Assembly: GCF_003675855.1 (NCBI RefSeq)
Contig: NZ_RCIH01000001.1
Span: forward strand, 186,001-250,000
DNA: 64,000 bases
Reading direction: 5' to 3'
Source: Halostella salina
GTDB lineage: Archaea > Halobacteriota > Halobacteria > Halobacteriales > Natronoarchaeaceae
Shown here: in pieces, positions 9,401 to 40,104 of the stretch
Numbering within the stretch: the stretch's first letter is position 1
How the letters are laid out: every line of letters starts with the position of its first letter
Position numbers and translations under genes: made by a program
The notes under the pieces: model-generated
What the model saw: only the letters and a program-made list of their open reading frames with translations
Databases searched by the model: none
Told to the model about the DNA's origin: nothing

Positions 9401-9490
9401 CACCGGTCGCCCCGCCGGGCGGTTCATCACCCGGTGTCGGGGGGTTCCTCGATCTCAAGACCTTTGACCGCGAGCGGCCGATCCGGGATC

Positions 9491-22959: not shown

Positions 22960-23144
22960 CTCTCTCCGAGGATCTAATCCCAATCCACTTAATCGTTTGT
23001 CAGACGACACCACGGAATGCTGCGATCGGCTCGCTCGACCGTCCTCACCGTTCCGACTGATCCAAACGACAAACGACCGGTTTGTGTCCGCCTTCGGCCG
23101 ATAACTACCCAATAACCAAACGGATCCAGGCGGGCTTGTCTCCA

Positions 23145-24326
23145 ATGGCTCCCTCGGTTCAGGGATCGGCCCCACGGGTCTGTATCGTCACCACGGCTCA
23201 CCATACGACTGATTCGCGGGTCGTTCACCGGGAAGCGATCTCGCTTGAGCGGGCCGGGTACGATGTCACCTACTACACTCCGTTCGCCGACGATTGTCCG
23301 GTCGATGCCGTCACATACGCCGATCACGCCTCGGGTTCCATTCCGTCGATCCGCGAGCGGCTGTTCTTCGTGGTGAAGCTCATGCACATGTTGTGGGGCA
23401 CGGATTACGACGTCTACCACCTCCACAGCGTCGAATTACTTCCGCTCGGGGGTCTCCTCGGGGCCGTCTCCGATGGGTGCGTCGTCTACGACGTCCACGA
23501 GAACGTCGAGGACGCACTGACGCACAAGGAGTTCCTTCCCGACCCGGTGAACTCCCACTTCGCGACGGTCGCCTCGGCGGTGGAACTCACGTTGACACGG
23601 TTACTCGACGCCGTCATCGTCGCCTCCCCCGACTTGCTCGAACGCTTCGATTCAAACGATGAGGTGACCGTGGTGACGAACTACCCTCGACGCGGACTGG
23701 CCGAAGGGACGTCGATGAAGGGTCGACACGAAGACAACGGGGAGCCGACCCAGTTCGTCTACTGCGGGCATCTCGCTGAGTACAGGGGTATCCTGACGCT
23801 GATCGATGCGGTCGACAGGCTCCCGGACCGGTACGACGTTTCGCTCGTCCTCGGGGGCGAGTACGCCTCGGACGGGATCCGGGAGCGGATTCAGCGTCGC
23901 GCGGCGGAGACCGACCGGGTCCGACTCGTCGGGTGGTTACCGACGTTCGACGACATGATCGAACTATTTCGGCGGTCGGACGTCGGGCTCATGTGCTTCC
24001 ATCCCGACCCGAACAAGACCGATGCGGTTCACCGTTCGAACAAGCTCTTCCAGTACATGGCTACTGCTCTCCCGGTCATCGTGTCCGATGTAGGGGAGTG
24101 GGAACAGTTCGTCGCAGACATCGGTTTCGGCGTCGCAGTCGACCCACACGACCCCGAGGCGATCGCGACGGCGATGGCCGAACTCGCGGACGATCCCGAC
24201 CGTCGTGCCGAGCTCGGCCGAAACGGACACGAGGCAGCCCTCGACCGCTACAACTGGGAGTCGCAGTGCGAAACGTTACTCGCACTCTACCGACGGTTGG
24301 CCCCCGGGTCTGACCGACAAGAGTGA
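23145..24326 (+). CDS. Glycosyltransferase family 4 (first in island)
   Basis: A 393-residue GT-B glycosyltransferase. The N-terminal Rossmann lobe has 'CIVTTAHHTTDSRVVHREAISLERAGYDVTYY'; the C-terminal GT4 lobe has 'YCGHLAEYRGILTLIDAVDRL', 'VGLMCFHPDPNKTDAVHRSNKLFQYMATALPVIVSDVG' with an E-x7-E-type acid region, and a final helix. It transfers a sugar from a nucleotide donor to a lipid-linked or cell-surface acceptor. The start is the ATG 30 bases after an AT-rich run. It is convergent with the YdjM-type gene. Confidence 0.88.
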   Translation: MAPSVQGSAPRVCIVTTAHHTTDSRVVHREAISLERAGYDVTYYTPFADDCPVDAVTYADHASGSIPSIRERLFFVVKLMHMLWGTDYDVYHLHSVELLPLGGLLGAVSDGCVVYDVHENVEDALTHKEFLPDPVNSHFATVASAVELTLTRLLDAVIVASPDLLERFDSNDEVTVVTNYPRRGLAEGTSMKGRHEDNGEPTQFVYCGHLAEYRGILTLIDAVDRLPDRYDVSLVLGGEYASDGIRERIQRRAAETDRVRLVGWLPTFDDMIELFRRSDVGLMCFHPDPNKTDAVHRSNKLFQYMATALPVIVSDVGEWEQFVADIGFGVAVDPHDPEAIATAMAELADDPDRRAELGRNGHEAALDRYNWESQCETLLALYRRLAPGSDRQE

Positions 24327-24440
24327 TCTGCCTCGCAACTGATCCGCCCTGCAATCGATCCGACCGACCGAGACGCACGGGTGTCGACTGTCGGGGCCGT
24401 AATGACGTGGTCGAAACGACTCCGGTCGGACGACGATCGG

Positions 24441-24995
24441 TTACCCCGTGATGCGGTGTACGACGACGGACAGCGCGGACCGAAGGGTTGCCAACCCCGG
24501 ACGCCCGTCACGGTCCCAAACGACGAACGCGAGGGCGACCAACGCGAAATCGAGCAAAACGAACGGACCGTGTTCGACCAGAGAGAGACGTGCCACGAAC
24601 GAAAGCTCCGTGTCGTACGGCGGGACCGACGTCACCGGCCACAGAAGCGTTCCGAGGACCGTCTCGTCCCCGAGAGCGATCGCCGGAACGACGTCCATCG
24701 CCGTGTGGGAAACCCACCCGACACCGAGCGGAATCACATATCTGCGATCAGTCGGAGCTAAGAGATACCAGAGGCCGCCGAGCACGACTCCCGCAGTGAG
24801 CAGGGAGTGTGCGAACGTTCGCCCGGTTGGGAGTACGAAGAACAGCCAAGCCAGCGGCTTGTCGACGAGGTCAGGCAACTGCGTCCCGAAGAGGGCGACG
24901 AGCGTCGCGGGTCCGGTCGGCGGCCTGCCTCCGCCGTGCCGACACAGCAACGAGTACGCCAGATACCCCACCGCCGCGTGTCCCGTCGGTAACAT
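24441..24995 (-). CDS. YdjM/DUF457-type membrane protein
   Basis: A 184-residue membrane protein with about four hydrophobic segments. The start 'MLPTGHAAVGYLAYSLLCRHGG' and the Asp/His-bearing motif 'FGTQLPDLVDKPLAW' and 'SHTAMDVVPA' are typical of the metal-dependent hydrolase family that includes Escherichia coli YdjM. Metal-dependent hydrolysis is inferred from the family; its natural substrate is unknown. It lies convergent to the first GT4 and upstream of the second GT4 by 168 bases. Confidence 0.82.
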   Translation of the reverse strand: MLPTGHAAVGYLAYSLLCRHGGGRPPTGPATLVALFGTQLPDLVDKPLAWLFFVLPTGRTFAHSLLTAGVVLGGLWYLLAPTDRRYVIPLGVGWVSHTAMDVVPAIALGDETVLGTLLWPVTSVPPYDTELSFVARLSLVEHGPFVLLDFALVALAFVVWDRDGRPGLATLRSALSVVVHRITG

Positions 24996-25163
24996 GGTAA
25001 TCTTAGCCCGTGATCGGAAATCAGTCTAGGGTCAAGGCGGCGTAGGTAGCGGTTCGCCGGCCGAGTGTAACGACCTGGACTGTCGTGGGGTCGCTCCCGA
25101 TAGCGGTCCACGCAACGTGCCGTCCGCTGTCCGAAACGCCATCAGTCGAGCCACGGCTGTCTA

Positions 25164-26276
25164 CTACTCGCCGTACGCTTCGTGCAGCAACCGCTCACCG
25201 ATACTCTTCCAGTCCATATGTCGGTTCTTGAACTCGTACCCGTTCCGACCCATGGTCTTCGCCTTATCGGCATCCTTCAGTAGCGAGGCGCACGCGGTGG
25301 CCAGTTCCTCCGGATTCTCGGGTTCGACTAGCAGCCCCGTCTTCCCGTGGTCGACGACTTCCGGCAATCCGCCGACCGCCGTCGCGATCACCGGTTTCTT
25401 GAACGAGTACGCGATCGGAACGATACCCGACTGTGATGCCTCTCTGTACGGCAGGACAACGGCTCGGCACCGACTGAATAGTTCACAGACGGTCTCGTTC
25501 GGAATGAACTCGTTGCGCACTGTCACGTGCTCGTCAGCAGCGTTCTCGTCGTCCAGCGGCCCGTTTCCCGCGACGATCATGGAGTACTCGTCGACCGATT
25601 CCGCCAAGTGTTGGTTCGCCTCGAGCAACGTATCGACGCCTTTGTACGGGCGGATCCGTCCGAAGAACAGCAGCGAGTCGTCGTAGCGGAGAGCCGAGTC
25701 ACAGTACCGGCGGAAAAACGAGTAGTCGCCGTGGTTGATCCGGACGAGTCGGTCGCCGATACCGAACCGCTGTTCGCACGCCGCGGCGTTGTACTCCCCG
25801 TGGACGACGACTCGATCGACGCTACGGACGAGCAACGAACGGGTGATAGCCTTGCGAAGTTTCCTTTCGCCGGGGTGGTCGGTCACGTCGTGGAGCGTGA
25901 ACACCGTCCGTCGTCCTCGGAGCGCGAGTAACGAGGGAACGATGAGCGGGTCCAGGATCGTCGCGTGGACCACGTCGACCCCACGGTCCGATAACCGCCG
26001 GTACAGTCTGGTCCACATCCGGACGACACTCGGTCGCAGTTCCGATACCGACCGCGGGAAATCGAATTCCTCGACGGTTACATCGCTCTTGAACAGCGAT
26101 CGGTCCGCCCCGCTGCCGACGATGGCGGAGACGTCGGCGATCCGGGAGAGGGCGTTTGCCGTCTGCGAACAGTAGTGCAACATCCCGCCGTCATCGGCCG
26201 TCGTGACGACGGTGACGGTCACGTCGTTCGCCGTGGGCCGGTCCGCCCTCTCCGCACCGACACTTCTATCCGCCAC
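25164..26276 (-). CDS. Glycosyltransferase family 4 (second in island)
   Basis: A 370-residue GT-B enzyme. The nucleotide-sugar lobe includes 'LLFFGRIRPYKGVDTLLEANQHLAES' and the acidic/Gly-rich GT4 signature 'VLPYREASQSGIVPIAYSFKKPVIATAVGGLPEVVDHGKTGLLVEP'. The N-terminal lobe begins 'VTVVTTADDGGMLHYCSQTANALSRIAD'. It resembles the first island GT4 only in the fold. It is transcribed away from the exported beta-helix gene across a 513-base gap. Confidence 0.88.
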   Translation of the reverse strand: MADRSVGAERADRPTANDVTVTVVTTADDGGMLHYCSQTANALSRIADVSAIVGSGADRSLFKSDVTVEEFDFPRSVSELRPSVVRMWTRLYRRLSDRGVDVVHATILDPLIVPSLLALRGRRTVFTLHDVTDHPGERKLRKAITRSLLVRSVDRVVVHGEYNAAACEQRFGIGDRLVRINHGDYSFFRRYCDSALRYDDSLLFFGRIRPYKGVDTLLEANQHLAESVDEYSMIVAGNGPLDDENAADEHVTVRNEFIPNETVCELFSRCRAVVLPYREASQSGIVPIAYSFKKPVIATAVGGLPEVVDHGKTGLLVEPENPEELATACASLLKDADKAKTMGRNGYEFKNRHMDWKSIGERLLHEAYGE

Positions 26277-26789
26277 GATCCGCGTTCCCGCTTCGTTTCT
26301 CCTCGGGTTTGCGTTCCCGCGCTCGCGAAGGTCGACTGGCTGTCATGTGGGCTGATTCGGGATCGGGATTTAGCCGAGCACGCATCTTGGTTATGTTCCG
26401 CGTAGTGTGGCCGGGTCGGTGTCGCTGCGGATCTGGTGGCTGGTTCGCGCCTCGGTCGAACTACTCCCACTGGTTCGCAATCCCTACGAAACGAAGCAGC
26501 CGGTGCAACGCGACCGGGGTCTGGTCGTCGTGCGCGTTTCCGGAACCGGTGTGCGGATTTCACCCGGTAAGGACTGCTTACGAGCGATCTGCGGTGGGAA
26601 ACCGAGTTCAAAACCGGCCGACGGACAGGAACTCTCGATAGCCCATCGTTGAAAGTACACTTCATGGTAAGTAAAGTAATGCAGATGAGGCGGAATTGAG
26701 AGACAAAAAGGTAGCAACAGTAATCAACCCTGACTAAATGAGGCTAAACCGGAATAATATTTTTCAGTAAAAACTCAATTCTCTCTGGT
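26277..26789. other. Divergent gap with an AT-rich right end
   Basis: About 513 bases with no supportable gene. The left part is GC-rich; from about 26660 to 26790 base composition falls and the run 'ggaataatattttt' (26751-26764) sits about 32 bases before the GTG of the exported beta-helix gene, a likely TATA box. Frames that look tRNA-like in translation around 26540-26590 do not fold into a tRNA. Confidence 0.55.
26751..26764 (+). promoter_or_regulatory. TATA-like box for the exported beta-helix gene
   Basis: 'ggaataatattttt' is the strongest AT run before the GTG start and predicts a leader of a few bases. Confidence 0.45.
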
Positions 26790-28610
26790 GTGCCAGAAGA
26801 TAAGGAACGTGGTACGGACAGTAAGTTAAGCCTAAATTCGGAAAGTGATCGCGGAACAAACAGTACTTCGCGAAGAGGATACATGAAAACGGCTGGTGCG
26901 GTCATCGGTTCCGCCGCCCTTCTATCCAACAACGCCTCTGCGTCGCAGAGCGACCCCACGAACGTCCTGACGATCCACGGCGACCAGGGGAAAGCGCGCT
27001 ATCAGTTCACCGTCAGCGGCGAACTCGAGAAGAACACGGACTCCGACGCATCGATCAACAGTAACGACAAGATCTCAGGAAGCTCCGCCGAAGGGCAGGT
27101 TTGGGGCGGCAGGGACAGCTACCGGTTCTCCGGAGAGGTCACCCAGTTCGACTTCTCGAAGGGCGTGGGGACGCTGTACCTCAACGGGGAGGAGGTGACC
27201 GTATCCGAACTTCTCGCTTCGACGGGAGGTGACGACTCCGGGCTCTCGCAGATCGAGTTATCCCTCTCCTCGCTCAGCCAGACCTACACGCACTACACGA
27301 TCGACGTCGCAGCAGCGAACCCGCCGAAAGTGGTGACGAGCGACGACGAGGTCGAAAGCCGCCTGTTGGCCGAGGACGACGACGTCGTCACTGAGGTCAG
27401 CGACGGCCACTACCGGATCGAGGGCCAGACCGGAACCGGGAGTGGAACCCCGCCCGCATACGGTGACACCTTCCGCTGGGAGACGTCCGAGGAGATGTGG
27501 GGTATCCTCGACTTCGCCTACGAGGGTGCGTCCGCGTCGGACCTGGAGATAACCATCTCGCCGTTGGGATCGGTACAGTCCTCCACCGACGAGTCCAGTT
27601 CCGATTCGGATTCGGATTCGGATTCGGATTCGGATTCGGGGTCTGGTTCGAACACGGTCGTCGGCGGTGGAGATAACTACTCGAACACCGTACCTCAGTC
27701 GGAGGCGTCGGTGGTGGTTTCGTCGAGTAGCGAACTCGTGAACGCGCTCGGATCCACGTCGAGCGGCGATGTCGTCTACGTCCGCGGCGACTCGACGATC
27801 ACGCTCGACCGCCGCCTGGACGTTCCGTCCGGCGTTACGCTGGCGTCGGACCGCGGGATCGACGGATCGTCCGGTGGGGAGATCAGGACCGAGAGCGCGC
27901 TGTGGCCCTTCCTCGCAGCGGCCAACGGTGCCCGCGTCACTGGTGTGCAGATCAGCGGCCCGCACACGCAGCACAGCTCCGACTCTAGCCGCAGTCTCTC
28001 CATCGGTATCGACGCGAAGGGATCGTCGGGCGTCGAGATCGACAACTGCGAGGTGTCCGGGTTCAGGTACGCCGGCGTCCGCGCCGGGAGCGACACGAAC
28101 GTCAGTCACAGTCACATCCATCACTGCTCCCTGTCGGGGTACGGATACGGGGTCGAGACCACCGTTGGGCACCCGATCGTCGAGTACAACTACATCAACT
28201 ACACTCGGCACGGTGTCATGTCTAACGGGGAGAACGGCTACACGTGCCGGTATAACCACTTCGGCCCGGACGCGATCGGTCACGTGATCGACGTTCACGA
28301 ACCGGGCGGAACGACGACGAAGATCCATCACAACACCGTCGAGGCGGCGACGTACCATGAGGATGCGACGGCGTCCTGGTACCCTAGCGGCGAGCCAGCC
28401 ATCCAGGTGATGGTCCAGGGCAGCCCCGACGACGTGGCCGACATCCACCACAACTGGTTCTACAATTCTAACGCCCCGGAGGCGGGCAACACCGGGGACA
28501 ACCAGTCGGCGATCGTCCAGAAGGGGCCCAGCGAGTGGACGAACGTGTCGCACTCCGAGAACCACTACGGTACCGACGACCCCGGTTCCGGAATCGGCCA
28601 TCCTCGATAG
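26790..28610 (+). CDS. Tat-exported protein with Ser-Asp linker and beta-helix
   Basis: A 606-residue exported protein. The signal contains twin arginines at 28-29 in 'SRRGYMK' and a hydrophobic stretch ending 'NNASASQS', likely cut there; the GTG start is needed to keep the Arg pair. Residues about 60-260 form a beta-rich domain of unknown family. A linker of Ser-Asp dipeptides (about 270-285) leads to a right-handed parallel beta-helix ('IHHCSLSGYGYGVETT', 'EYNYINYTRHGVMSNG', repeated NosD/pectate-lyase-like turns). It probably binds or modifies polysaccharide. It lies amid glycan genes. Confidence 0.85.
   Translation: MPEDKERGTDSKLSLNSESDRGTNSTSRRGYMKTAGAVIGSAALLSNNASASQSDPTNVLTIHGDQGKARYQFTVSGELEKNTDSDASINSNDKISGSSAEGQVWGGRDSYRFSGEVTQFDFSKGVGTLYLNGEEVTVSELLASTGGDDSGLSQIELSLSSLSQTYTHYTIDVAAANPPKVVTSDDEVESRLLAEDDDVVTEVSDGHYRIEGQTGTGSGTPPAYGDTFRWETSEEMWGILDFAYEGASASDLEITISPLGSVQSSTDESSSDSDSDSDSDSDSGSGSNTVVGGGDNYSNTVPQSEASVVVSSSSELVNALGSTSSGDVVYVRGDSTITLDRRLDVPSGVTLASDRGIDGSSGGEIRTESALWPFLAAANGARVTGVQISGPHTQHSSDSSRSLSIGIDAKGSSGVEIDNCEVSGFRYAGVRAGSDTNVSHSHIHHCSLSGYGYGVETTVGHPIVEYNYINYTRHGVMSNGENGYTCRYNHFGPDAIGHVIDVHEPGGTTTKIHHNTVEAATYHEDATASWYPSGEPAIQVMVQGSPDDVADIHHNWFYNSNAPEAGNTGDNQSAIVQKGPSEWTNVSHSENHYGTDDPGSGIGHPR
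27603..27638 (+). repeat. Six tandem copies of the hexamer gattcg
   Basis: Six in-frame copies of gattcg encode alternating Asp and Ser. Gain or loss of a unit changes linker length by two residues without a frameshift. Confidence 0.9.
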
Positions 28611-28678
28611 GAGCCGTTACCCGATCAGGCTCTCTTCCTGTGGGCAGTCACTCCGTGGCGGTCGGCGCGGCCACCGCC

Positions 28679-30652
28679 TCATGGCGTAGTGCACATGACG
28701 ACGTCTTCGGCCGTGTACACGTAGTTACGATCCCGCGGACAGACCCGTTCCTGCGGGAGTCGTCCGGTAGTGAGGAACCCATCCGGACCCAGATACACCG
28801 GACGACCTTCGGACTGGTACGCGCGGTAGACGACCGGGCTCTCCTCCGGGGTCACTTGACCGTCGTCGGTCACAGTGAACATGTAGGCCGAAAACGAGTA
28901 CTCTTCCTCGAAGCGTCTCTCGGGGTCCTCGTTGACCCTGGTGAGTGCCCGGAAATAGGGGTTGTCCGTGTAGATCGGCTCCCCGTCCGCCGGGATGGTT
29001 TCGTGGAAAGTCTCGCCGGCGGCCACTTCTGGAGCCGTGTGGGCCCACTTCTGCCACTGCCGTTCGAACGTCGGGTTGTCGATAGTCGCGGGCTGGGAGA
29101 CCATCATCGCCGTTGGGAACACCAACAGAAAGACGATGAGGACGACGGCGACGTCGTGGGCTCCGAGGCGGATCACGAAGTGCCTGATTCCGGCGGCACC
29201 GACGACGACCATCGGTGCGTACATGAACGCGTACCAGCGGGGAGGGACCAGGAACCGAAAGCCGAACAGCGGGAGCCCCATCAGGAACACCATCGTGGCC
29301 GTGATCGCGCCGATGAAGGTGTACGTCGCGACGGATCGGTCGCGCTGGAGCATCGTCAGACAGCCGTAAGCCGCGACCGCCAGGAGGAGGAAGAACCCGA
29401 TCTTGTCCACGTACGCCGCGATCCGGGCCACGACCCCCGTCGACACCGGCTCGCCGCCCCGAGTCGGAACGTCCTGCACCAGATTGAGGAACCCGACCGA
29501 TTCCGAGATCCACCGCTGTGAGATCTCGATGACGCCAGTGATGAAGAGGCCGCCGAGCCACGGCGTGACGGCCCACTGGACCAGGACAAAAGCCAGGAAA
29601 ATGCCGAACGCACCCAGTAGGTACCGCTCGTCGCTGGGGATGCTCATCCCCTCGACGAACCGGGCCGCGAACAGGACGACGGTGGTCGTTCCGAGGAAGA
29701 CGAGCGTGATGAACGCCGACACCTGATGCGTGAGTGCGACGACGATGCTGAAGGCGGCCAGCAGGGCGAAGTCGACCCGGTCGACCTCCGTGTACAGCGC
29801 TCGGGTGAGGAAAAACAGGACGGCGAGAAAGAAGACCAGGCCGAGGCTGGTCGTGCTGATGTAGAGCCCCCAGTAGATGACGTAATCGGACCCGGCGAAC
29901 AGCGCGGTCGCGAACAGCGCCCACCTGACGCCCGTGACGTACCGCGTCGTCGCGTACACGAACAACACAGAAAGTGGCATGACGAGTCCGATACCGAGAT
30001 AGAGCGCGGCCCGGAGCGAGACGTCGAACAGTTCGGCAGCGGCGACCGTCAGAAGGTGATAAAACGGCGCAGTGTAGTACTTCACCCCTGAGATGGCAGA
30101 GAGCGACCCCGTTTCCTGGATCGCGGCGGCGTAGCTTGTCACGTGCGTCCAGTTGTCGAATCCGATGAACCCTGGGGTGGTCAACAGCCCCGCGTACCGC
30201 ACGACGACCGCGAGAGCGACGATTTCGACGAGGACGACCCGATAGTCGAGCTCCTCGACGCTTGCGAAGACGATCTGGGCCAGCACAAGGCTCCCGACGG
30301 TGCCGGCGACCAGGTGAAACGCGACGGGCCGACCGCCGGCCGCGGCCGCGATGACGACCAGACTCGACAAGCCGACAACGACGAACCGCGGCACCAGCCT
30401 CGAGACTGGAACCGTCGTCCGAAACGACGCGACGCCCGCGGTTCGTGATGACGTCCGCGAGTCAGATCGTACCGCGAGGAGATAGAGCAAACACCCGACG
30501 CCCAGGGCGGTCGGGATCCCCTGCACGAGGATGTCCGTGGTGACGAATCCGAGCGGGAGGAGCGCCACCGAGAGGACGAAGCCGACCGCTGCGGCGAGCA
30601 CGTCGGTCTCGGCCTCGACCAGCCGTTCGAGCTTCTCCCGTACGCTTCTCAT
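28679..30652 (-). CDS. Large multi-pass membrane protein, GT-C-like
   Basis: A 657-residue protein with about twelve or more membrane segments and an extracytoplasmic C-terminal tail of about 130 residues. After the first segments, 'GFDNWTHVTSYAAAIQETGSLSAI' resembles the first acidic loop of GT-C glycosyltransferases and oligosaccharyltransferase-like proteins. A lipid-linked sugar transferase is the best inference; no family name is assured. The start is the ATG of MRSVREKLE; upstream in-frame residues overlap no signal. It precedes the flippase by 183 bases on the same strand. Confidence 0.72.
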   Translation of the reverse strand: MRSVREKLERLVEAETDVLAAAVGFVLSVALLPLGFVTTDILVQGIPTALGVGCLLYLLAVRSDSRTSSRTAGVASFRTTVPVSRLVPRFVVVGLSSLVVIAAAAGGRPVAFHLVAGTVGSLVLAQIVFASVEELDYRVVLVEIVALAVVVRYAGLLTTPGFIGFDNWTHVTSYAAAIQETGSLSAISGVKYYTAPFYHLLTVAAAELFDVSLRAALYLGIGLVMPLSVLFVYATTRYVTGVRWALFATALFAGSDYVIYWGLYISTTSLGLVFFLAVLFFLTRALYTEVDRVDFALLAAFSIVVALTHQVSAFITLVFLGTTTVVLFAARFVEGMSIPSDERYLLGAFGIFLAFVLVQWAVTPWLGGLFITGVIEISQRWISESVGFLNLVQDVPTRGGEPVSTGVVARIAAYVDKIGFFLLLAVAAYGCLTMLQRDRSVATYTFIGAITATMVFLMGLPLFGFRFLVPPRWYAFMYAPMVVVGAAGIRHFVIRLGAHDVAVVLIVFLLVFPTAMMVSQPATIDNPTFERQWQKWAHTAPEVAAGETFHETIPADGEPIYTDNPYFRALTRVNEDPERRFEEEYSFSAYMFTVTDDGQVTPEESPVVYRAYQSEGRPVYLGPDGFLTTGRLPQERVCPRDRNYVYTAEDVVMCTTP

Positions 30653-30835
30653 GCGTTCTCCCCCGACGATCCCCGGCTTGGGGCGGTCGCAATCCTCGTG
30701 TGCACCACATTCGGTATCGGTTGGTTGTAATGACCACGTTACAGCGGGTAAGGCCGACTTGTCTGGCCGCCGAGGACGACCGGTGCGGGCTGACAACCAC
30801 CGTGGCAAGGACGGGGGGACGGGCGATTGAGCCCG

Positions 30836-32314
30836 TCATTTGGAGACGACGCCGACCCGCGTCAGCAACGTCCGGACCTCCCACCCGTCGATAGCGCCGC
30901 TGAGCAGGGCAGCGATCAGGTGGACTGCGAATCCGACCAGGGGGACGAGAACGAGCGCTAGGAGGTCCCCAGTGATCGCTGCGGAGAGCGAAACCACGAC
31001 GGCCGCCGTAACGATGGTCGTCGCTACGACGCGTCCGACCCGGACGTCGCCGAGCGGGTCGTATCCGATACGCCGGGCGGTCACTACGTGGAATACGAGC
31101 ATCGATCCGTAACCAACGCTCGTCGCGACAGCCGCGCCGACCATGGCGTACTGCGGGATCAGGGCCGCGTTTAGCGCGAGGTTGAGCAGGGATGCGCTCC
31201 CGGTCGCGACGATTAACGGGAGGAGGTTACCCCGCGCCTGACTGATCGCTATCAGCGGGCGCGCGGCGGCGAAGCCGATAGTTCCGGGAAGCAACCATAT
31301 CAGCGGACCGATAACGGGCGCGAAGTCGGAACCGTAGTACAGCGGAACGAACCGGTCCGCTAACGTCGCGATCCCGACCGCGAGTAGCCCGGAAAACAGC
31401 ATCGTGTACCGTGTGACCTGCGCGGCTAACTCGTTGATACGCTCGTACGCCTCGTCGCTCCAGAGCGTGGAGGCCGAGTGAAGCAACAGCGTCTGAAGGG
31501 AGATCGGCACGATCCAGAGGTACTCCGCGAGCGACAGCGCCGCCTTGTAGTACCCCGTCTGTTCGCTTCCCGCGAACGTTCGGAGCATTACGATATCGAC
31601 GTGAAACAGCGACATCGTCAGGAGCACGAGGACGATGTTGAGCACGTTGAACGAGAGTAGTTCGTCCCGCGGGAAATCGCTCGGTGGGAGGGTGAGGACG
31701 CTCCGTACCGGCACTCGGCGAAAAACCAACGACAGGCCGACCGCGGCGATCACCACGTTCGCGACCGCGATACCGCCCAACATCCCCACGACGCCGTAGC
31801 CGACGGCAGCGAGTCCGAGTCCGACCCCTCTCGAAAGGGCTTCGTTCACCGCTTCGAGCGTCTCGGAGTACCGTTCGAGGCCGTAGCCCATCAGCGTCCG
31901 CCGCGCTAACATCCGATACTGAATCACGACGAGGAGGACCGCCAACAGGTAGAACTCGGCCTCCAGCTCCGCGCTGAAGAGGCGCTGGACGACCCCTGAC
32001 CCGGTGAGGAGAACCACACCGCCCGCGCCTGCGACCGCGAGGACTGTCGCCAGCCTCGCGTAGAATCCGAACACGTTTGGGTACCATCCGGTAGCGTCGC
32101 GGTTCTCACCGATGTACTTCTGTACCCCTTCCGTGACTCCCGAACTGACGACCACTATGCTCAACGAAAGGACAGACATGATGAACGCGTAGTCACCGTA
32201 GCCACCGGGACCGAGTACGCGAACGATGAACGGTAACGTGACGATCGAGATCACCGAAACCAACAGCCTGGACCCGAGGATCGAAACGAACCCCTCGATC
32301 AGGCTCCGCCCCAC
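30836..32314 (-). CDS. Oligosaccharide flippase (Wzx/MATE-like)
   Basis: A 492-residue membrane protein with about fourteen segments, of the polysaccharide-transporter (Wzx, MurJ/MATE superfamily) type. The first segments 'GRSLIEGFVSILGSRLLVSVISIVTLPFIVRVLGPGGYGDYAFI' are typical. It would flip a lipid-linked glycan across the membrane. The gene begins with GTG. It adjoins the GT-C-like membrane gene and converges or diverges with GT genes on both sides, fitting the island's glycan role. Confidence 0.87.
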   Translation of the reverse strand: MGRSLIEGFVSILGSRLLVSVISIVTLPFIVRVLGPGGYGDYAFIMSVLSLSIVVVSSGVTEGVQKYIGENRDATGWYPNVFGFYARLATVLAVAGAGGVVLLTGSGVVQRLFSAELEAEFYLLAVLLVVIQYRMLARRTLMGYGLERYSETLEAVNEALSRGVGLGLAAVGYGVVGMLGGIAVANVVIAAVGLSLVFRRVPVRSVLTLPPSDFPRDELLSFNVLNIVLVLLTMSLFHVDIVMLRTFAGSEQTGYYKAALSLAEYLWIVPISLQTLLLHSASTLWSDEAYERINELAAQVTRYTMLFSGLLAVGIATLADRFVPLYYGSDFAPVIGPLIWLLPGTIGFAAARPLIAISQARGNLLPLIVATGSASLLNLALNAALIPQYAMVGAAVATSVGYGSMLVFHVVTARRIGYDPLGDVRVGRVVATTIVTAAVVVSLSAAITGDLLALVLVPLVGFAVHLIAALLSGAIDGWEVRTLLTRVGVVSK

Positions 32315-32870
32315 GGTGTTACTTCCCGTCCGGGGAGACCCGCGACACGGAGTCGGGCCTCGTCCACTCGGTTCGCGTTTCTCCCCGCTGCAGATCCGTT
32401 ACGAGGTGGCTGGGCTGACCGCTACCCTCCGTTTCGGCCCGAGTCAGTCGTGTCAGAAAGACAGCCATGTCTACCAGCCTGTACACGACTCCAGGCATCC
32501 GGACGGTTTTGTTATTCTGTCGGTACGCCGGAGATCGGTCCCATTACGTTCCGTCCGGGTGTGTGAAGATGAGCCTCCGTAGCGGGGTCGACGTGTCTAT
32601 CTCCCCGTTCACGCGACTCGGCTCTGACTGGGTGAGAACACCGTCTTCCCTTTCGGGAGCCGATCCGTCGAAGTCACGCAGCCAACGATCCCGACCCCAC
32701 CGCTGTGACGGCCAGTTGCATAAGTCTACGTTATGCGGAGTAGCGATTCAATAACAAAGTGCGCACGAACAATGTCTTGAACAGGTTCCCAAGCGATCGC
32801 CTCGGGTCCTGATAGCGGACCGACCGCTCGTCGGGGACTCGGATTCGATGCCGGACGGGAAGAGATCTAC
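32315..32870. other. Divergent gap between flippase and third glycosyltransferase
   Basis: About 556 bases without a credible gene. An AT-richer section from about 32700 to 32765 includes a short hairpin (gcataa ... ttatgc, 32718-32736) and the run 'attcaataacaaag', a possible promoter for the third GT4 with a leader near 100 bases. A plus-strand frame of 95 codons (32467-32754) lacks a domain and haloarchaeal bias. Confidence 0.5.
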
Positions 32871-33842
32871 ATGTCGAACGAACCGACGCTGCGAACGCTT
32901 CAGCTCGTCACCACTCCCCGACCCTTCTTCGAGCAACAGATCCGGGTGCTCGAAGGGAACGGTATCTCGTGTACGACCGTCTCCGTTCCCGGAGTGAAGG
33001 GCGAACGGACCCTGAAAGAGTACGTCCGGTTTTACGGCCGTACGATCCGCCGAGCGGTTGGTTCTGACTTCGATATCGTTCAGGCGAACTATGGACTCAC
33101 CGCTCCCGCAGCCATTGCACAACCGAAGCGACCGGTGGTTCTCTGGTTCTGGGGGACCGAACTCTTCGGGCAGTACAGCCGGATCAACAAACTCTGTGCC
33201 GAGTACGCCGACGCGGTGATCGTGATGTCCGAGGAGATGGCCGGCCGTCTTGATCGTCCGACCTACATCATTCGACACGGGGTCGACACGGACCGGTTCA
33301 GGCCGCTCCCACGTGACGAGGCGCTAGCCGAACTCGGGTGGAATCCCGACGCGAAACACGTGTTGTTCCCGTACGACCCGGGCCGAGAACTCAAGAACTA
33401 CCCCCGTGCGAAAGCGGTCGTTGATACGACCGCCGAGCGAATCAGTTCCGACGTCGAACTTCACGCCGTCCACGGCGTCGCACACGAGCGGATCCCGGTG
33501 TACATGAACGCCGCTGACGCGCTGCTTCTCACCTCGAAAACGGAGGGCTCCCCCAATTCAGTGAGGGAAGCGCTCGCCTGCAATCTCCCGATCATCTCCG
33601 TTGATGTCGGCGACGTCAGGGAGCGGACACTCGGAGTCGACAACTGCCACGTCTGTGACGCGGACGACGAACTCGTCGCGAGCCTCGGGGACGTTCTGGA
33701 GAGTGATGAGCGCTCGTCCGGTCGAGAGCGGATCGACGAATTTAGCCTGGATCGGATGACCCGGGACCTCCTCACAGTGTACGACGACGTCCTCCCGGAT
33801 TTCCAGCGGGAAGGGTCCCGACTCATACGAGATGAACGATGA
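32871..33842 (+). CDS. Glycosyltransferase family 4 (third in island)
   Basis: A 323-residue GT-B enzyme, shorter than many GT4 proteins. It has 'VVLWFWGTELFGQYSRINKL' and the acceptor-lobe start 'TLQLVTTPRPFFEQQIRVLE', followed by 'VLFPYDPGRELKNYPRAKAVVD' and the GT4 signature 'ALLLTSKTEGSPNSVREALACNLPIISVDVGDV'. It probably adds one sugar in the chain built by the island. It is followed in the same direction by the DUF1616 gene after about 50 bases. Confidence 0.86.
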   Translation: MSNEPTLRTLQLVTTPRPFFEQQIRVLEGNGISCTTVSVPGVKGERTLKEYVRFYGRTIRRAVGSDFDIVQANYGLTAPAAIAQPKRPVVLWFWGTELFGQYSRINKLCAEYADAVIVMSEEMAGRLDRPTYIIRHGVDTDRFRPLPRDEALAELGWNPDAKHVLFPYDPGRELKNYPRAKAVVDTTAERISSDVELHAVHGVAHERIPVYMNAADALLLTSKTEGSPNSVREALACNLPIISVDVGDVRERTLGVDNCHVCDADDELVASLGDVLESDERSSGRERIDEFSLDRMTRDLLTVYDDVLPDFQREGSRLIRDER

Positions 33843-33896
33843 ACCGCAGGCCCGTTCCGCGGTCGACCGGAACTACCACATGGCACACTCGCTGTC

Positions 33897-35003
33897 ATGA
33901 CTGATACCGAACCCTGGCCCCCGATGTTCACCGACCTCGCCGCGGGGATCCTTTTTATCGGGGCGTTACTCACCGTAGCGCTCGTCTCCGACCACGTTCA
34001 GTTCACGTCCGTGATTCAGCTATTGGTCGGCGTTCCGGTGTTCCTGTTCGTTCCCGGGTATCCGATCACCCTTGTGCTCTTTCCTCGCACGCGGCCGGAG
34101 GCGGTTCGGACGAGCGAGTCCGTCGCGGACTCGTTTCATCAACGAGCCCTCAGCCCGGTCGAGCGGTTCGCTCTCTCGGTCGTGACGAGCGTAGTGGTAG
34201 TGGCAGTCGTCACGCTCGCTGTGACCCTGCTCCCGTCCGGGATCAGCGAGTTGTCGATTGTGAGCGGGATCGCTGCGGTGACCCTTCTGTTCACCGCGGC
34301 CGCGGCGACGGGGCACCGACGAGTGCCGCCCGAAGATCGGCCTACCGGGCTGCTCAACGCGATACCGACCCCCACTCCCGAACGCACGTGGTCCGAGCAA
34401 CCGAAACTGACGCTCCTGAACCTCATGGTCGTCCTCAGCGTGATTCTCGCGGCGTCAGTAGTGGTGTTTCAACCGTTCGGCCCGCCGGCGTCGGAGCCGT
34501 TCTCGGAGTATCAACTACTGGTGGAGCAACCGGACGGTGATCTAGCTGCCACCGACTACCCGGGCCAGTTCACCGCGGGCGAGAACGAGTCGCTCTCCGT
34601 TCGCATACGGAACCACGAGGGGCAAGCGGTAAACTACACCGTGGTTGTCCGAGTCGAGCGACTAACTGGGACAGATGAGTCCCCGTCGGGTCGGGTGATA
34701 CGACGCGATCGGTTCCACGTTCCGGTTGAGGCTGGCGGCTCGCGTACGGTCCGTCGCTCACCGTCGTTGTCGACCAGCGGTGATTACCGTCTCGTCTACC
34801 TGTTCTACGAGGACTCTCCTGCCGGCGCACCCGACCGCGAAAGCGCCGACGGTGCGCTTCACCTGCGGATCTCGGTCTCCGAGCCATCGAACCGTGTTTC
34901 TCTTCCGAACGAACGCACGGTCCCAGTTTCATCCCCGATTTCCCTGTCTTTTGTGCCGAACACCGCTTATAAATATTCGAGTATTCACGGTTCCCGATCG
35001 TAA
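33897..35003 (+). CDS. DUF1616-family membrane protein
   Basis: A 368-residue protein with about four membrane segments in the first half ('VPVFLFVPGYPITLVLFP' is the family signature, 'SPVERFALSVVTSVVVV') and an extracytoplasmic C-terminal beta-rich domain containing N-x-S/T sites (NESLS, NYTVV). DUF1616 proteins are often beside haloarchaeal protein-glycosylation genes; their function is not established. The next gene's TATA-like box lies within its last codons. Confidence 0.85.
   Translation: MTDTEPWPPMFTDLAAGILFIGALLTVALVSDHVQFTSVIQLLVGVPVFLFVPGYPITLVLFPRTRPEAVRTSESVADSFHQRALSPVERFALSVVTSVVVVAVVTLAVTLLPSGISELSIVSGIAAVTLLFTAAAATGHRRVPPEDRPTGLLNAIPTPTPERTWSEQPKLTLLNLMVVLSVILAASVVVFQPFGPPASEPFSEYQLLVEQPDGDLAATDYPGQFTAGENESLSVRIRNHEGQAVNYTVVVRVERLTGTDESPSGRVIRRDRFHVPVEAGGSRTVRRSPSLSTSGDYRLVYLFYEDSPAGAPDRESADGALHLRISVSEPSNRVSLPNERTVPVSSPISLSFVPNTAYKYSSIHGSRS
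34966..34978 (+). promoter_or_regulatory. Promoter inside the end of the DUF1616 gene
   Basis: 'gcttataaatatt' is a strong TATA box inside the preceding coding sequence, about 66 bases before the first possible ATG of the GT2 gene. It predicts a transcript start near 34998 and independent expression of that gene. Confidence 0.55.
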
Positions 35004-35037
35004 TACGGCGTTGTGGTGTCCTTAGCAATCAATAACT

Positions 35038-36090
35038 ATGGGTGCTCCGATGCTACCAGTTCGAAGATTCTCGATGTACGAAGGCAGAACGGTCGGCGTC
35101 GTCGTACCGGCTTACAATGAAGCCGACCACGTCGGGCACGTGATCCGGAAGATGCCATCGTTTGTTGACCGCATCTACGTGGTTGACGACGCGTCGACCG
35201 ACAACACTTGGGAGGAGATCAGGGGGGCAGCGGAACGGTTGAACGAACACGGGCACGCCGAAGTGGACCGACACCTGTCGGGTCGGGGTACCCTGGTTAC
35301 CGGGGGACGAGTCATCCCGATACGTCACGAAACGAACCGGGGGGTCGGCGGTGCGATCAAGACCGGATATCTCTCCGCACTTGCCGACGAGATGGACGTG
35401 ACGGCCGTTATCGCCGGCGACGATCAAATGGACCAAACGCTGCTGAAATCGCTTCTCGAACCGATCGTACAGGGACGGGCCGACTACGCAAAGGGCAACC
35501 GGTTCCTCTCGGCGGAGGACCGGGAGAACGTGCCCCGATTCCGTCTCTTTGGCAACGCCATGCTCTCGTTTCTCACGAAGGTTGCCAGCGGGTACTGGAC
35601 GATCAGCGATTCACAGAACGGGTACACGGCGATCTCCCGCGAGGCGCTCGAATCGATCGAAACCGATCGAATGTACGAATTTTACGGGTACTGCAACGAC
35701 ATTCTGGTCCGACTCAACGTGGCGGGGATGACAGTCGTCGACGTGCCGCTGCCTATCAGCTACGAGGACGAATCGAGTAATATAAATTATTTTACATATG
35801 TTCCCCACGTCTCCGGGATGCTACTGCGAAACTTCCTCTGGCGGTTGAAAACAAAGTACGTATTGAGGGACTTCCACCCGCTCGTCCTGCTGTACGGCTT
35901 TGGTGCCGTCGGAAGTATCGCTTTTGCCCTCCAGTCGTTCAACGCGGCTCGTTCGGAGGACGGGCCCCAGCTGTCAACGACTGTGAACAACGGATTAGTG
36001 GCTGGCCTGCTGCTCGTTCTGGCGATGGTCTTTGATAGGATCGACAACGACCATCTTGACGAAAGCTGGATCGAAGACTCGGAGGTATAA
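35038..36090 (+). CDS. Glycosyltransferase family 2 with two C-terminal membrane helices
   Basis: A GT-A enzyme of up to 350 residues. 'GVVVPAYNEADHVGHVIRKMPSFVDRIYVVDDASTDNTW' is the GT2 start, 'IAGDDQMDQTLLKSLLEPI' contains the DxD-like motif, and 'SDSQNGYTAISREAL' is the acceptor region of dolichol-phosphate sugar transferases. Two hydrophobic segments at 275-325 anchor it to the membrane. It resembles the enzyme that loads the first sugar onto dolichol phosphate. ATG codons at 35038, 35050 and 35074 are all possible starts. Confidence 0.86.
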   Translation: MGAPMLPVRRFSMYEGRTVGVVVPAYNEADHVGHVIRKMPSFVDRIYVVDDASTDNTWEEIRGAAERLNEHGHAEVDRHLSGRGTLVTGGRVIPIRHETNRGVGGAIKTGYLSALADEMDVTAVIAGDDQMDQTLLKSLLEPIVQGRADYAKGNRFLSAEDRENVPRFRLFGNAMLSFLTKVASGYWTISDSQNGYTAISREALESIETDRMYEFYGYCNDILVRLNVAGMTVVDVPLPISYEDESSNINYFTYVPHVSGMLLRNFLWRLKTKYVLRDFHPLVLLYGFGAVGSIAFALQSFNAARSEDGPQLSTTVNNGLVAGLLLVLAMVFDRIDNDHLDESWIEDSEV

Positions 36091-36165
36091 TCGAACCCCA
36101 ACGAGCTCGGTGATGCGGGACCCAAAAGGAATCGGTCGACGGCACCCTGTACGGCGCGGTCACCG

Positions 36166-37788
36166 TTACGAGCGGATCGCACTCCAGTAATTGAGCTTTG
36201 CGATGGCGAGAAGCGTATCCGGCCCGGGGTCGAACCGGTCCCGGTTTTGCTCGAAGAGCGAAGCGCTGTGACTGAAGACCTCCTCGTTCCAGGGGGAAAG
36301 ACCGGCCCATATCGCGGTTTTGGTCTCGTGATCCCCGTCTGTGGCCCCGGTGCCGTTCACGTGGTAGTTCGCTGCCTGTGAGCCGTCCTCCGTGACCGCG
36401 ACGTTCCGTGTGTACGTCCTCGCGAGACGGATCATATCCTCCGCAGTAAACGGTGACCCTCGCTCTCCGGCCTCCGTCCGGTTGTATAGCGATGTAGCGA
36501 ACTCGATGTCAATGTGCCCGTGGTTGATGTCCTCTGGCCGGTCTTCGACTGCATCGTCCAGTCCAGGAGCCCAGGGCCGGTATTCCGAGGCAGGATCCGC
36601 AGTCGACCACCCGTCCGCAAACTGTCCTTTCGACCAGTAGTACGACCAGACGTATGCACCGGACTCATCGACCCGTAAGTCGTTTCTGAAGGTGCGAGCC
36701 AGCCGCTGGGCCCTTTTGGCGTACGACGAGTCGCCGGTGACCGCCGCGAGCGTGGACAGTGACAGGCCGAGCGCGAGCGACTGGTTGTGTGGCAGTTCGA
36801 CCGATTCGTTCGGTGTCGGGGATCCGGGCGTAAAGACGTAGTACCCCTCCCTCTCGTCCTTCAGTCGCCACTGAGGGTCGTGGACCCGAACCGCTCGCTC
36901 GGCGGCTCGCCGGTACTGGCTGGCGCGCTCCTCGTAACGGGGACGTTCACGAAGCTCCGACGTCTCGGCGACCAGTCGTGCGAAGGTGGCCAGCGGCAGC
37001 GTTATCAACCCCGTGTGAACGGCGAAAATATAGTGCGGTGAGTCGAGTCCGTACTCCCCGGCGACAGGCGTTCCGACATCGTCCGCTGTACTCTGGATAT
37101 CTCTGACCGTGACGAGACAGGAATCGGGCGTTTCCTCGGGAAACCCCTCGTGATTTATCCGCGTCACGGCGTAGTTCACGTCGTCCGGATCCATGGTAAG
37201 ACCCTCGTAAGACGTTGTTCGTCCGAGGGCGGAGTTCCGGACAACCAGATCGAAGCCATCGGAACCGGACGCCGTCGAGACTGTGGCCGTCGATCGATCG
37301 CCGTACGCAGCTGCGGTGCGAACTTCGAGGGACGGCTGTCCGGCCTCGTCGGGCAGGCGGACTCGGCCGATCGTGTACGGCGAGTCGGCTCGCCACACCG
37401 GAAGCGACTTGCCGCGGTAGTCGGTTACGCCTCGCTCGCTGTCACGGTTCTGGAGAACTGCGTCCGCGTGTTCGATGAACGCGTCCAGATACGACTCGTC
37501 GTCGTGGGCGAGATACATCAGTAAATACGCCCGCATAACGTACGACTCCCCCCAGGCAAGGAGTCCGCTCTCGCTCGTCCCCTCGCTATCGTTGGTCACT
37601 CCGGTAAGCCCGCCACCGTCGTGAAACTCGGCGTCGAATTCGTCGAACGTCGTGGCCATCTCGAAGTGGCTCTTGTCCGGGACGTCCGCGCTGTCTCGGG
37701 GAGCGATCGTGCAGCCCGTGAGGGACACTCCCGCAGCCGAAATAGTATTTTTAATCATACTTCTACGGGTAACCCGTGAATCCCTCAT
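36166..37788 (-). CDS. Tat-exported lipoprotein, probable alpha/alpha-toroid enzyme
   Basis: A 540-residue exported protein. The start MRDSRVTRRSMIKN gives a twin-arginine motif, and the lipobox ends 'SLTGC', so it is likely lipid-anchored outside. The mature part is mostly helical pairs with conserved aromatic and acid residues ('LLAWGESYVMRAYLLMYLAHDDESYL', 'HNQSLALGLSLSTLAAVTGDSSYAKRAQRLARTF', 'NHGHIDIEF'). It resembles the alpha/alpha barrel of glucuronyl epimerases and hydrolases. Action on the surface glycan is inferred; no catalytic pair is certain. It converges with the GT2 gene. Confidence 0.65.
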   Translation of the reverse strand: MRDSRVTRRSMIKNTISAAGVSLTGCTIAPRDSADVPDKSHFEMATTFDEFDAEFHDGGGLTGVTNDSEGTSESGLLAWGESYVMRAYLLMYLAHDDESYLDAFIEHADAVLQNRDSERGVTDYRGKSLPVWRADSPYTIGRVRLPDEAGQPSLEVRTAAAYGDRSTATVSTASGSDGFDLVVRNSALGRTTSYEGLTMDPDDVNYAVTRINHEGFPEETPDSCLVTVRDIQSTADDVGTPVAGEYGLDSPHYIFAVHTGLITLPLATFARLVAETSELRERPRYEERASQYRRAAERAVRVHDPQWRLKDEREGYYVFTPGSPTPNESVELPHNQSLALGLSLSTLAAVTGDSSYAKRAQRLARTFRNDLRVDESGAYVWSYYWSKGQFADGWSTADPASEYRPWAPGLDDAVEDRPEDINHGHIDIEFATSLYNRTEAGERGSPFTAEDMIRLARTYTRNVAVTEDGSQAANYHVNGTGATDGDHETKTAIWAGLSPWNEEVFSHSASLFEQNRDRFDPGPDTLLAIAKLNYWSAIRS

Positions 37789-38087
37789 ACTCGGAAACAC
37801 GTCTATCCGTCCTAAGATAGTCGCTTTCGACGTATAACTCGAAGGGTGAACGGCCGAAAATAATATCAAAGAAAACTGGTATTTGCTGGGAATCCCACCC
37901 CATCCCGTCGCAGGCCTCCTTTGCATTCCCGTCACCTGACGTTACCGCGGGTCGGCCCCGTGGCAAATCGGTACAAAGGGGTGCATTACAACGGCGGGCG
38001 GAGTTGCATTCCGAACAGCAGTGACTGGGTGTGTCTGGGCATCCCCGCGGAACGCCGGTCACACTCGCGGAACCATTCAGCAAGCCA

Positions 38088-39161
38088 ATGAGTATACACA
38101 CACCGACAGACGGACTTCGCGTGTCGGAACGGGTCACGACGCCGGACCGGTGGAAACCGGTGGAGAGAGCAGGCTCCACGGTCTATTCGACGTGGGAGTG
38201 GGGGACGATCTGTGAGGAGTTTGGCCACGAACGTTACTATCTCGGGATTGTGGAGAACGACGAACTCGTTGCGGGGGTGCCCCTGATGCACGTTGAGAGC
38301 AGGCTATTCGGGAGCGAACTGGTTTCGATGCCCTACGCTCCGTACGGCGCTTTCTACCTCTCCGAGGAGCTCGCCGATCCGGACGAGTACCGGGACCGGT
38401 TGTTGGCTGACGTACGACGGCTTTCGGACGCGCTCGGGGTCACACAGATGACGATCCGGGGCAACGAGATCGAGTCCGCCCTCGACGATATCCGTCACAC
38501 GTCCCGGTTCGTCACCTTCGAACGGGACCTCTCGGAGGGCGTCGAAGAAGCCTGGGAGTCCGTTTCGTCCCGGTTCCGCCGTTCCGTCCGTAAGGCCAGA
38601 AAAAACGGGGTCCGTGTCGAGCGGGGCTTCGACAGTTCGGCGTTCGATGCCTACTACGAGATGTATCTCGACAACATGCGCTACTACGGAACCCCTCCCT
38701 ACTCGCGCCGGTTCTTTCGGAACGTCCACGAGTATCTCGGCCGCGAGGGCGCGTTCGAGATGTACCTCGCCTACGACCCGGATGGAAAGCCGATCAACGG
38801 GGTAACCGTCTTCCTTTCGGGCTCGAAAGCGATCTACTGGACGGGCGTGTCCGACCACGAGTACAGGGACCTCAACGGTGGGAGCCTGTTACTCTGGGAG
38901 GCGATCACCGATAGTTGCGCCCGCGACTTTCCGGTGTTCGATCTTGGACGGACACGGGAGGGGACCGGCGTGTACGACTACAAGAAGGGGATCGGGGAAC
39001 CGGTCGACCTCGTGGACACCCATTATGCACCCGACGGTGATCTTGACCTAACCGATCCCGCGAATGACAGCTACGAGAAGTACAAACGCGTCTGGCAGCA
39101 GCTTCCGCTTCGCGCCACGGAGTACGTCGGCCCGCACATTCGAAAGCGGTTGAGTCTGTGA
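38088..39161 (+). CDS. FemAB/GNAT-like transferase (exosortase-cluster type)
   Basis: A 357-residue protein made of two GNAT-like lobes, as in FemAB peptidyltransferases. Key features are 'SRFRRSVRKARKNGVRVERG' (about residue 165) and 'VFDLGRTREGTGVYDYKKGIGEPV' near the C-terminus. In bacteria this type lies with exosortase/PEP-CTERM extracellular polysaccharide genes. Halobacteria lack peptidoglycan, so acylation or aminoacylation of another surface polymer is inferred. The start is the ATG of MSIHTPTDG; an upstream start would add odd sequence. It is four bases from the end of the deacetylase gene. Confidence 0.82.
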   Translation: MSIHTPTDGLRVSERVTTPDRWKPVERAGSTVYSTWEWGTICEEFGHERYYLGIVENDELVAGVPLMHVESRLFGSELVSMPYAPYGAFYLSEELADPDEYRDRLLADVRRLSDALGVTQMTIRGNEIESALDDIRHTSRFVTFERDLSEGVEEAWESVSSRFRRSVRKARKNGVRVERGFDSSAFDAYYEMYLDNMRYYGTPPYSRRFFRNVHEYLGREGAFEMYLAYDPDGKPINGVTVFLSGSKAIYWTGVSDHEYRDLNGGSLLLWEAITDSCARDFPVFDLGRTREGTGVYDYKKGIGEPVDLVDTHYAPDGDLDLTDPANDSYEKYKRVWQQLPLRATEYVGPHIRKRLSL

Positions 39162-39164
39162 GAG

Positions 39165-40085
39165 CTACGGTCCAAACGCGGAGTCGGCGACGTGCCTACA
39201 CGGTCTCTGATCGTGTGGGATCGAGCGTAGCAGCTTCCGGATCCGGTTTTCGGCTGTCGCTCCCTTAAATAGCCAGAATACCGGCCGTCGGTTTACACTC
39301 CCGACGTCTGGGAAGGATCCGCGGGCGATGTCGAGCGGATGGAAATAGAAGACCGAGTGTCCTTTCCCGAGGCTCTGTTTGATCCCTCTCTCCAGGATTC
39401 GCCGACCGAATATCCTGATGAGCGGCCCACCGGCTGTCGGGACCCGCGCCCCCGGGAAGCGGAAGTACGGCCACGGTAGTTCGACTAGGTCGCGGCTTCC
39501 TCCGGGGCTGAGCGTCCCGTTTTCCGGCACGTACGGCGTTCGGCCAACGTCGCCGAGCGACTGATCCGTCTTGTTGTACAGCGAGTTCCGCGCGACTGAG
39601 CTGTCGTATTCGAAGCCCAGATCCTCTACGATGTCGAGCATCCACCCGGCGACGTACACCGCGGGGGCTCTGAACCCTGTAACGTCCTGCCCCGAAGTAG
39701 ATTCCAGTATGGACTTAGCCCGGATGAGGCGGTCGCGGTACTCGTCCTCGGTGAAACGCGGTTCCTTCGTGTCGGGGTGGATCGCAAACTCGTGGTGGAG
39801 GCCGTGGCAGCCGATCTCGTGGCCGCGTGAGGCAATCTCCTCTACGAGGCCCGGGTAGTTCTCGACGATGTCCGCGACGACGAAAAACGTCGCAGTGATG
39901 CCCAGTTCGTCGAACAGGTCGAGCGTTCGCTTCGTCGGACTGGTCAAGTAATCGTACTTCCCGTCCCACGAGTCGAGGAACTCCGACGCTGACGGATACG
40001 GCGAAAACGGAGCGCCGGATACCGTCGGTACGTGATACCAGTCCTCGACGTCGACCGAGACGGCCAGTTTACTGGCCTCGCTCAT
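39165..40085 (-). CDS. Polysaccharide deacetylase with DUF3473 C-terminus
   Basis: A 306-residue NodB-type carbohydrate esterase. The catalytic start is 'SVDVEDWYH' (two Asp), the zinc motif is 'GHEIGCHGLHHEF', and 'GFRAPAVYVA' supplies the Arg. Later 'PWPYFRFPGARVPTAGG' and 'HPLDI' match the DUF3473 tail typical of exosortase-linked deacetylases. It removes N-acetyl groups from amino sugars. It converges with the FemAB-like gene. A TATA-like box (minus strand 'gggttttagac') is 26 bases before the ATG, so it is probably leaderless. Confidence 0.88.
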   Translation of the reverse strand: MSEASKLAVSVDVEDWYHVPTVSGAPFSPYPSASEFLDSWDGKYDYLTSPTKRTLDLFDELGITATFFVVADIVENYPGLVEEIASRGHEIGCHGLHHEFAIHPDTKEPRFTEDEYRDRLIRAKSILESTSGQDVTGFRAPAVYVAGWMLDIVEDLGFEYDSSVARNSLYNKTDQSLGDVGRTPYVPENGTLSPGGSRDLVELPWPYFRFPGARVPTAGGPLIRIFGRRILERGIKQSLGKGHSVFYFHPLDIARGSFPDVGSVNRRPVFWLFKGATAENRIRKLLRSIPHDQRPCRHVADSAFGP

Positions 40086-40104
40086 CTCTCTCCCATCGTT
40101 GCAC

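Follow-up and report, generated by a model that had tools for sequence, protein, structure and literature searches.

Deacetylases and FemAB-like proteins are known as neighbours in bacterial exopolysaccharide clusters, where a table in PMC3684757 lists consecutive nodB and femA genes in Rubrivivax, Thauera and Rhodoferax. For the holdfast of Caulobacter, a two-step scheme has been proposed in which HfsH deacetylates and HfsK then acylates; HfsK is described there as ending in a 25-residue extension that FemX lacks and without which HfsK neither associates with the membrane nor is active (PMC5362036). The holdfast of Hirschia baltica showed no phenotype when hfsK and its paralogues were deleted, while hfsH mattered (PMC8449245), so the two steps can be uncoupled. 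Orf11, another FemABX relative, is described as aminoacylating a streptothricin-type antibiotic precursor from Gly-tRNA, and the title of the cited paper calls the acceptor an amino sugar.

Haloarchaeal pairs bear on the role of FemAB-like proteins outside peptidoglycan, since they remove both peptidoglycan and the exosortase and leave the deacetylase, which makes a two-step hypothesis directly testable. The literature we searched on FemAB, archaea and haloarchaeal exopolysaccharide, mostly titles and the beginnings of abstracts, yielded no archaeal deacetylase–FemAB pair, and we found no enzyme assay of the archaeal FemAB-like family in it. Six deacetylases are described in Natrialba magadii, and the accessible part of that paper does not mention a FemAB-like partner (PMC3403918).

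Here we analyse a 64,000-nucleotide stretch of the Halostella salina genome (the window), in which an earlier note had picked out a FemAB-like gene and a DUF3473 deacetylase gene, four bases apart and convergent, and had suggested that they act in series on a surface glycan. The genome is 3.7 Mb in size and 99% complete, and its relatives within the order are haloarchaea. The observation is confirmed and its interpretation partly supported: orientation and outer coordinates stand, the stop codons being separated by three bases instead of four; the XrtA nodB–femA pair (PMC3684757) is, like Caulobacter HfsH/HfsK, a close bacterial precedent; and serial action is supported, as an idea already put forward for HfsH and HfsK (PMC5362036). 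Both reading frames are intact from ATG to stop, that of the FemAB-like gene ending with a TGA at 39161.

The pair closes a stretch of about 18 kb (window 22000-40100) with a GC content of 0.619, compared with 0.707 (1-12000) and 0.712 (40100-64000) in the flanks. Besides the pair, it holds three GT4 genes, a GT2 gene, a Wzx-like flippase gene, a DUF1616 gene and genes for unclassified membrane and secreted proteins (Table 1). On the strength of its low GC and its glycosyltransferase, flippase and DUF1616 content, this stretch is therefore a surface-glycan island. The 540-residue protein encoded next to the FemAB-like gene has no match in Pfam or NCBIfam and nothing convincing in the PDB, and its start presumably represents a Tat lipoprotein signal. 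GT4 genes of the kind found at 25164..26276 adjoin many homologous FemAB genes. Directly past the right edge of the island lies an HTH_10 regulator gene, followed by what we take to be histidine-utilisation genes. Beside the same downstream genes, one congener carries a different gene set (L084).

Table 1. Features of the surface-glycan island, in window coordinates
Feature	Position	Strand	Basis or remark
GT4 glycosyltransferase	23082..24326	+	
GT4 glycosyltransferase	25164..26276	-	
Large membrane protein, 657 aa, hydrophobic and multi-pass-looking	28679..30652	-	No family match; homologues in related islands
Wzx-like polysaccharide flippase	30836..32314	-	PF01943; weak HfsF match, 28.8 bits
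GT4-type glycosyltransferase	32871..33842	+	
DUF1616 membrane protein	33897..35003	+	212 bits
GT2 glycosyltransferase, weakly AglJ-like	35038..36090	+	58.9 bits, cut-off 325
Unclassified protein, 540 aa, divergent from the FemAB-like gene	36166..37788	-	
FemABX-fold (double-GNAT) N-acyltransferase-like protein, 357 aa, basic C-terminal extension (residues 326-357)	38088..39161	+	Pfam, TIGR03019, predicted structure
CE4 polysaccharide deacetylase with DUF3473, 306 aa	39165..40085	-	Pfam, TIGR03006, alignment, predicted structure

Pfam places the FemAB-like protein in PF13480 (Acetyltransf_6; 81.6 bits, cut-off 22) and PF02388 (FemAB; 34.2 bits, cut-off 24), and the deacetylase in PF01522 (68.0 bits, cut-off 23.1) and DUF3473 (PF11959; 39.2 bits, cut-off 29.6). 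As in the XrtA/PEP-CTERM system, both also match the XrtA-associated NCBIfam models over their full length, the FemAB-like protein reaching 198.7 bits against TIGR03019 (model positions 11-329 of 330), below the cut-off of 260.35, and the deacetylase 135.1 bits against TIGR03006, below the cut-off of 276.2. TIGR03019 is matched by all 30 aligned FemAB sequences at E <= 0.001, and two operon-type haloarchaeal deacetylases score about 210 bits against TIGR03006. Many haloarchaeal pairs share the deacetylase-first order of the XrtA system, whereas the window pair is convergent, with a deacetylase that scores below the operon-type ones. On these profile scores, orthology of the pair with the XrtA proteins is not supported. 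We reject the exosortase context that the note had invoked, because both genes fall below the equivalog cut-offs and the host genome has no PF09721 match at E <= 0.001. Other sorting homologues do occur in the genome, namely archaeosortase A, on a different contig from the window, and 13 PGF-CTERM matches, 10 of them over the cut-off; as none of these lies in the window, they lend no support to a sorting role, and the archaeosortase link was dropped. The pair represents, in an archaeal version, a pairing known from bacteria, and it is uncoupled here from both the exosortase and peptidoglycan.

The AF2 model of the FemAB-like protein (pLDDT 90.4, pTM 0.88) superposes on FemX of S. aureus (6snr; Z 27.6, rmsd 3.7 A over 303 residues) and of W. 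viridescens (Z 27.5, 3.1 A over 295), on FemA (Z 26.4) and on Sba18 (9wqy; Z 26.4, 2.3 A over 272, the lowest rmsd among the 50 matches listed). Since these scores are far above those of the first MprF match (Z 19.9) and of the tandem acyl-CoA GNATs (Z 17.4 or less), the predicted structure is that of a FemABX double lobe and not of a generic GNAT, the latter being an outcome that the note had named as refuting its reading. A profile of the protein and 29 homologues likewise had no PDB matches other than FemX, FemA and the entries 9wqw-9wqy, titled 'aminoacyl-tRNA-dependent peptide synthases' (nine distinct sequences in all). The fold is shared with FemX and FemA over about 300 residues at a sequence identity of 12-18%, and the window protein differs from them in that its acceptor cannot be a peptidoglycan stem peptide, the host presumably lacking peptidoglycan. 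Sba18/Sbb17 and Orf11 are FemABX relatives too, and act on a soluble antibiotic precursor instead of a surface glycan.

In the HMMER alignment, Phe304 and Lys305 of FemX correspond to Y298 and K299 of the window protein, the role assigned to Phe304 being our assumption. K299, the equivalent of the catalytic Lys305, is present in 30/30 homologues, and position 298 is F in 29 of them, with the window protein carrying the Y. FemX Lys36, which we take to contact the UDP precursor, falls on C42 and on V, C, A, I, T or S throughout the 30 sequences, never on lysine; the N-terminal match to W. viridescens FemX is weak here (-0.2 bits), and the S. aureus FemX alignment agrees. As this precursor lysine is not kept, peptidoglycan-type chemistry is not indicated, despite the kept catalytic lysine.

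As to the donor, the predicted fold slightly favours aminoacyl-tRNA, because the closest solved folds (FemX, FemA and Sba18/Sbb17) belong to enzymes that are annotated or described as depending on aminoacyl-tRNA; the chief alternative is acyl-CoA. Haloarchaea would then aminoacylate a surface polysaccharide, the deacetylase baring the amine of an amino sugar and the FemABX-fold enzyme loading it with an amino acid from aminoacyl-tRNA, a full scheme that we put forward tentatively and consider unlikely. If an amino acid were placed on a glycan, this would amount to tRNA-dependent glycan modification in Archaea, and would give an archaeal glycan peptide-type side groups by way of the enzyme fold behind the cross-links of bacterial walls, with neither peptidoglycan nor an exosortase involved. 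As evidence for the donor we dropped the idea of a conserved tRNA-binding helix of positive charge, since the charge seen in the window protein is not shared by its relatives.

The protein may instead be, like ordinary GNATs, an acyl-CoA-dependent N-acyltransferase that transfers acetyl, formyl or longer acyl groups, so that the pair would swap an acetyl group without any tRNA, which we judge possible if somewhat unlikely. In the position of the GNAT pyrophosphate loop, judged from the strand–helix order of the AF2 model, the clade of the window protein carries the segment R260-D-L-N-G264-G265-S, with R, G and G in 19/30 aligned sequences and the two glycines absent from FemX and Sba18 in the alignments; such an R-D-x-x-G-G loop could hold the CoA pyrophosphate. 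The helix matched to the proposed tRNA helix of FemX, with a net charge of +7 in the window protein and -3 to +4 in the other 29, also speaks for acyl-CoA, while the tandem acyl-CoA GNATs lying ten Z units below the FemX-type enzymes and the invariance of the catalytic lysine of tRNA-dependent enzymes speak against it; neither of these two points settles the donor.

Superpositions on FemX extend no further than residues 322-326, and residues 326-357 form a conserved C-terminal tail with a net charge of +4, compared with -20 for the core, and with Gly348-Pro349 in 30/30 sequences. By analogy with HfsK, this basic tail probably holds the enzyme at the membrane. The window pair shares with HfsH/HfsK the double GNAT fold, the extra C-terminal extension and the deacetylase partner, as judged from published descriptions of HfsK; it differs in that hfsK lies outside the hfs locus and that HfsK binds c-di-GMP. 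By eye, neither window protein has an N-terminal signal peptide, so both enzymes should work in the cytoplasm.

The deacetylase model is of lower confidence (mean pLDDT only 77 (77.3), pTM 0.85) and resembles 3rxz (Z 24.4), H. pylori HP0310 (Z 23.5, 2.6 A over 246 residues) and ArnD (Z 19.7). With HP0310 and other CE4 deacetylases it shares the fold and the D-x-E/D and H-x3-H patterns, which we take to be the CE4 motifs, and it differs from them in carrying a C-terminal DUF3473. Across 23 aligned deacetylases, D12, E14, H98, R139 and H249 are invariant and H94 is kept in at least 90%; we assume that these six residues are the base, the metal ligands and the catalytic residues, as in CE4 enzymes.

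From these features we lean, by a little, towards a reading in which the products of the two genes carry out successive steps of a single glycan modification: cytoplasmic deacetylation, re-acylation and export. The CE4 deacetylase would remove the N-acetyl group from an amino sugar in the cytoplasm, on an unexported sugar or a lipid-linked glycan; the FemABX-fold enzyme, probably membrane-held by its basic tail, would put another acyl group on the freed amine; and the flippase would export the product to become a surface polysaccharide or exopolysaccharide.

The presence of a FemAB-like protein in an organism without peptidoglycan, which the note singled out, is less odd than it may seem in view of its distribution: homologues occur in 142/293 genomes of the order at E <= 0.001, most of them distant, and deacetylase homologues in 161/293 at the same threshold. 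We analysed the neighbours of the best FemAB match per genome at >= 60 bits, which gave 29 haloarchaeal loci including the window, a match at a contig end (L037) being dropped. The immediate FemAB neighbour is a deacetylase in 17/29 loci; in 16 of the 29 it lies directly upstream on the same strand, several of these pairs overlapping by four bases, and the one convergent pair is the window's own. A further scan of named genomes covered 15 loci, six of them new and nine on contigs that, by their length, had already been counted. Among the new loci, the same-strand order recurs in Halogranum rubrum, Haloarcula amylovorans and Haloferax massiliensis, the Halorubrum coriense pair is convergent with 50 bp between the genes, and no deacetylase adjoins FemAB in Natronolimnohabitans or on a 4.6-kb contig that bears a Gammaproteobacteria label. 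Homologous same-strand pairs occur in Haloferax species, namely H. massiliensis (L099) and Haloferax mucosum (L101).

A deacetylase lies within 10 kb of 13/18 strong FemAB homologues, compared with 0/20 flippase-centred and 0/20 GT2-centred control loci (Fisher p 1.6e-6 against each set). The controls were the 20 best flippase loci and the 20 top GT2 loci, of which L129 and L145 overlap in the same genome and some genomes recur in both sets. FemAB-linked proteins made up most of the first deacetylase profile (A2), and a second one, from 15 unlinked deacetylases, gave the same counts. Five of the 18 loci have no deacetylase within 10 kb. In four genomes (G040, G014, G057 and G029) one lies farther out, at about 10.6-13.7 kb, and in G057 and G029 it adjoins a second FemAB gene; three of the 20-kb loci (L069, L070 and L071) had been cut to include a deacetylase already known at 10.6-13.7 kb, and counting them gives 16/18. 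The fifth genome, the congener G070, has no deacetylase in the stretch around its FemAB gene. The linkage between FemAB and deacetylase thus holds against the controls, which bears out the co-conservation of the pair, whose absence the note had named as its other refuting outcome. For the window itself the operon argument fails, as its genes are convergent, and the case for linkage rests on the relatives.

Several of these loci have a composition of their own. The clusters of L070 and L071 each contain two FemAB-like genes that belong to different subfamilies, one adjoining the deacetylase and the other 13-14 kb off. In L027, L033 and L083, where the FemAB-like gene has no deacetylase beside it, its neighbour encodes a short protein that is hydrophobic near its N-terminus, and in L027 and L083 a gene that looks aminotransferase-like by eye lies nearby, which suggests another source of a free amino sugar.

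The deacetylase partners do not form a single lineage. In a quick tree of 47 deacetylases with long inner branches, 21 same-strand partners fall within one group of 25 (support 97), the window deacetylase groups with those of G207 and G043, and that of Halorubrum coriense belongs to a third group; a single clade of all 23 adjacent deacetylases is rejected (p-AU 6e-82). FemAB genes therefore adjoin deacetylases of at least three lineages, which we take as evidence of a functional tie, with the second and third lineages represented by one convergent case each, as chance within a cluster could give. The window deacetylase is 65-66% identical to those of G207 and G043, whose genes come after a GT2 gene homologous to that at 35038..36090 and have no FemAB within 10 kb; its identity to an operon-type partner is about 30%. 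FemAB genes seem to have paired anew with unrelated deacetylases, the window's being one such re-pairing.

The same data bear on a second alternative, that the two enzymes decorate different sugars, or act at different times, within the same pathway, and that they came to adjoin each other in the window through gene shuffling in a variable island. Convergent adjacency, seen in only 2/35 loci (the 29 best and the six further ones), could arise by chance within a cluster, and together with the FemAB-free surroundings of the closest deacetylase relatives it counts against serial action. The island does vary, with its GC of 0.619 against 0.71 on both sides: it differs between species of the genus, in which only 2/5 genomes (the host's and G070) have a strong FemAB, that of G070 standing without a deacetylase beside the same downstream genes. 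Yet the deacetylase-first, same-strand arrangement in 16/29 loci, often with a four-base overlap, and the 0/40 controls speak against mere parallel action, which we regard as unlikely, and we retain consecutive steps as the preferred reading.

It is very unlikely that the target of the FemAB-like protein is a lipid or an anchor protein and not the glycan, in an MprF-like or sorting-related role, since its linkage is to deacetylases and glycosyltransferases, the window has neither a PGF-CTERM match nor an archaeosortase and the genome lacks an exosortase. In favour of such a role, the MprF aminoacyl-lipid synthases rank next by fold (Z about 20), the genome encodes archaeosortase A and PGF-CTERM proteins, and for HfsK itself an anchor protein was not fully excluded as the target by its authors (PMC5362036).

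Elsewhere in the host genome (G000), two more Acetyltransf_6 proteins are encoded within 12 kb on another contig (C10:58294-69870; L003 and L001), near another GT2 gene (C10:61253). A contig labelled as a Gammaproteobacteria metagenome-assembled genome (L090) encodes a FemAB that is 42% identical to that of the window, and is possibly a haloarchaeal contaminant or the result of a transfer.
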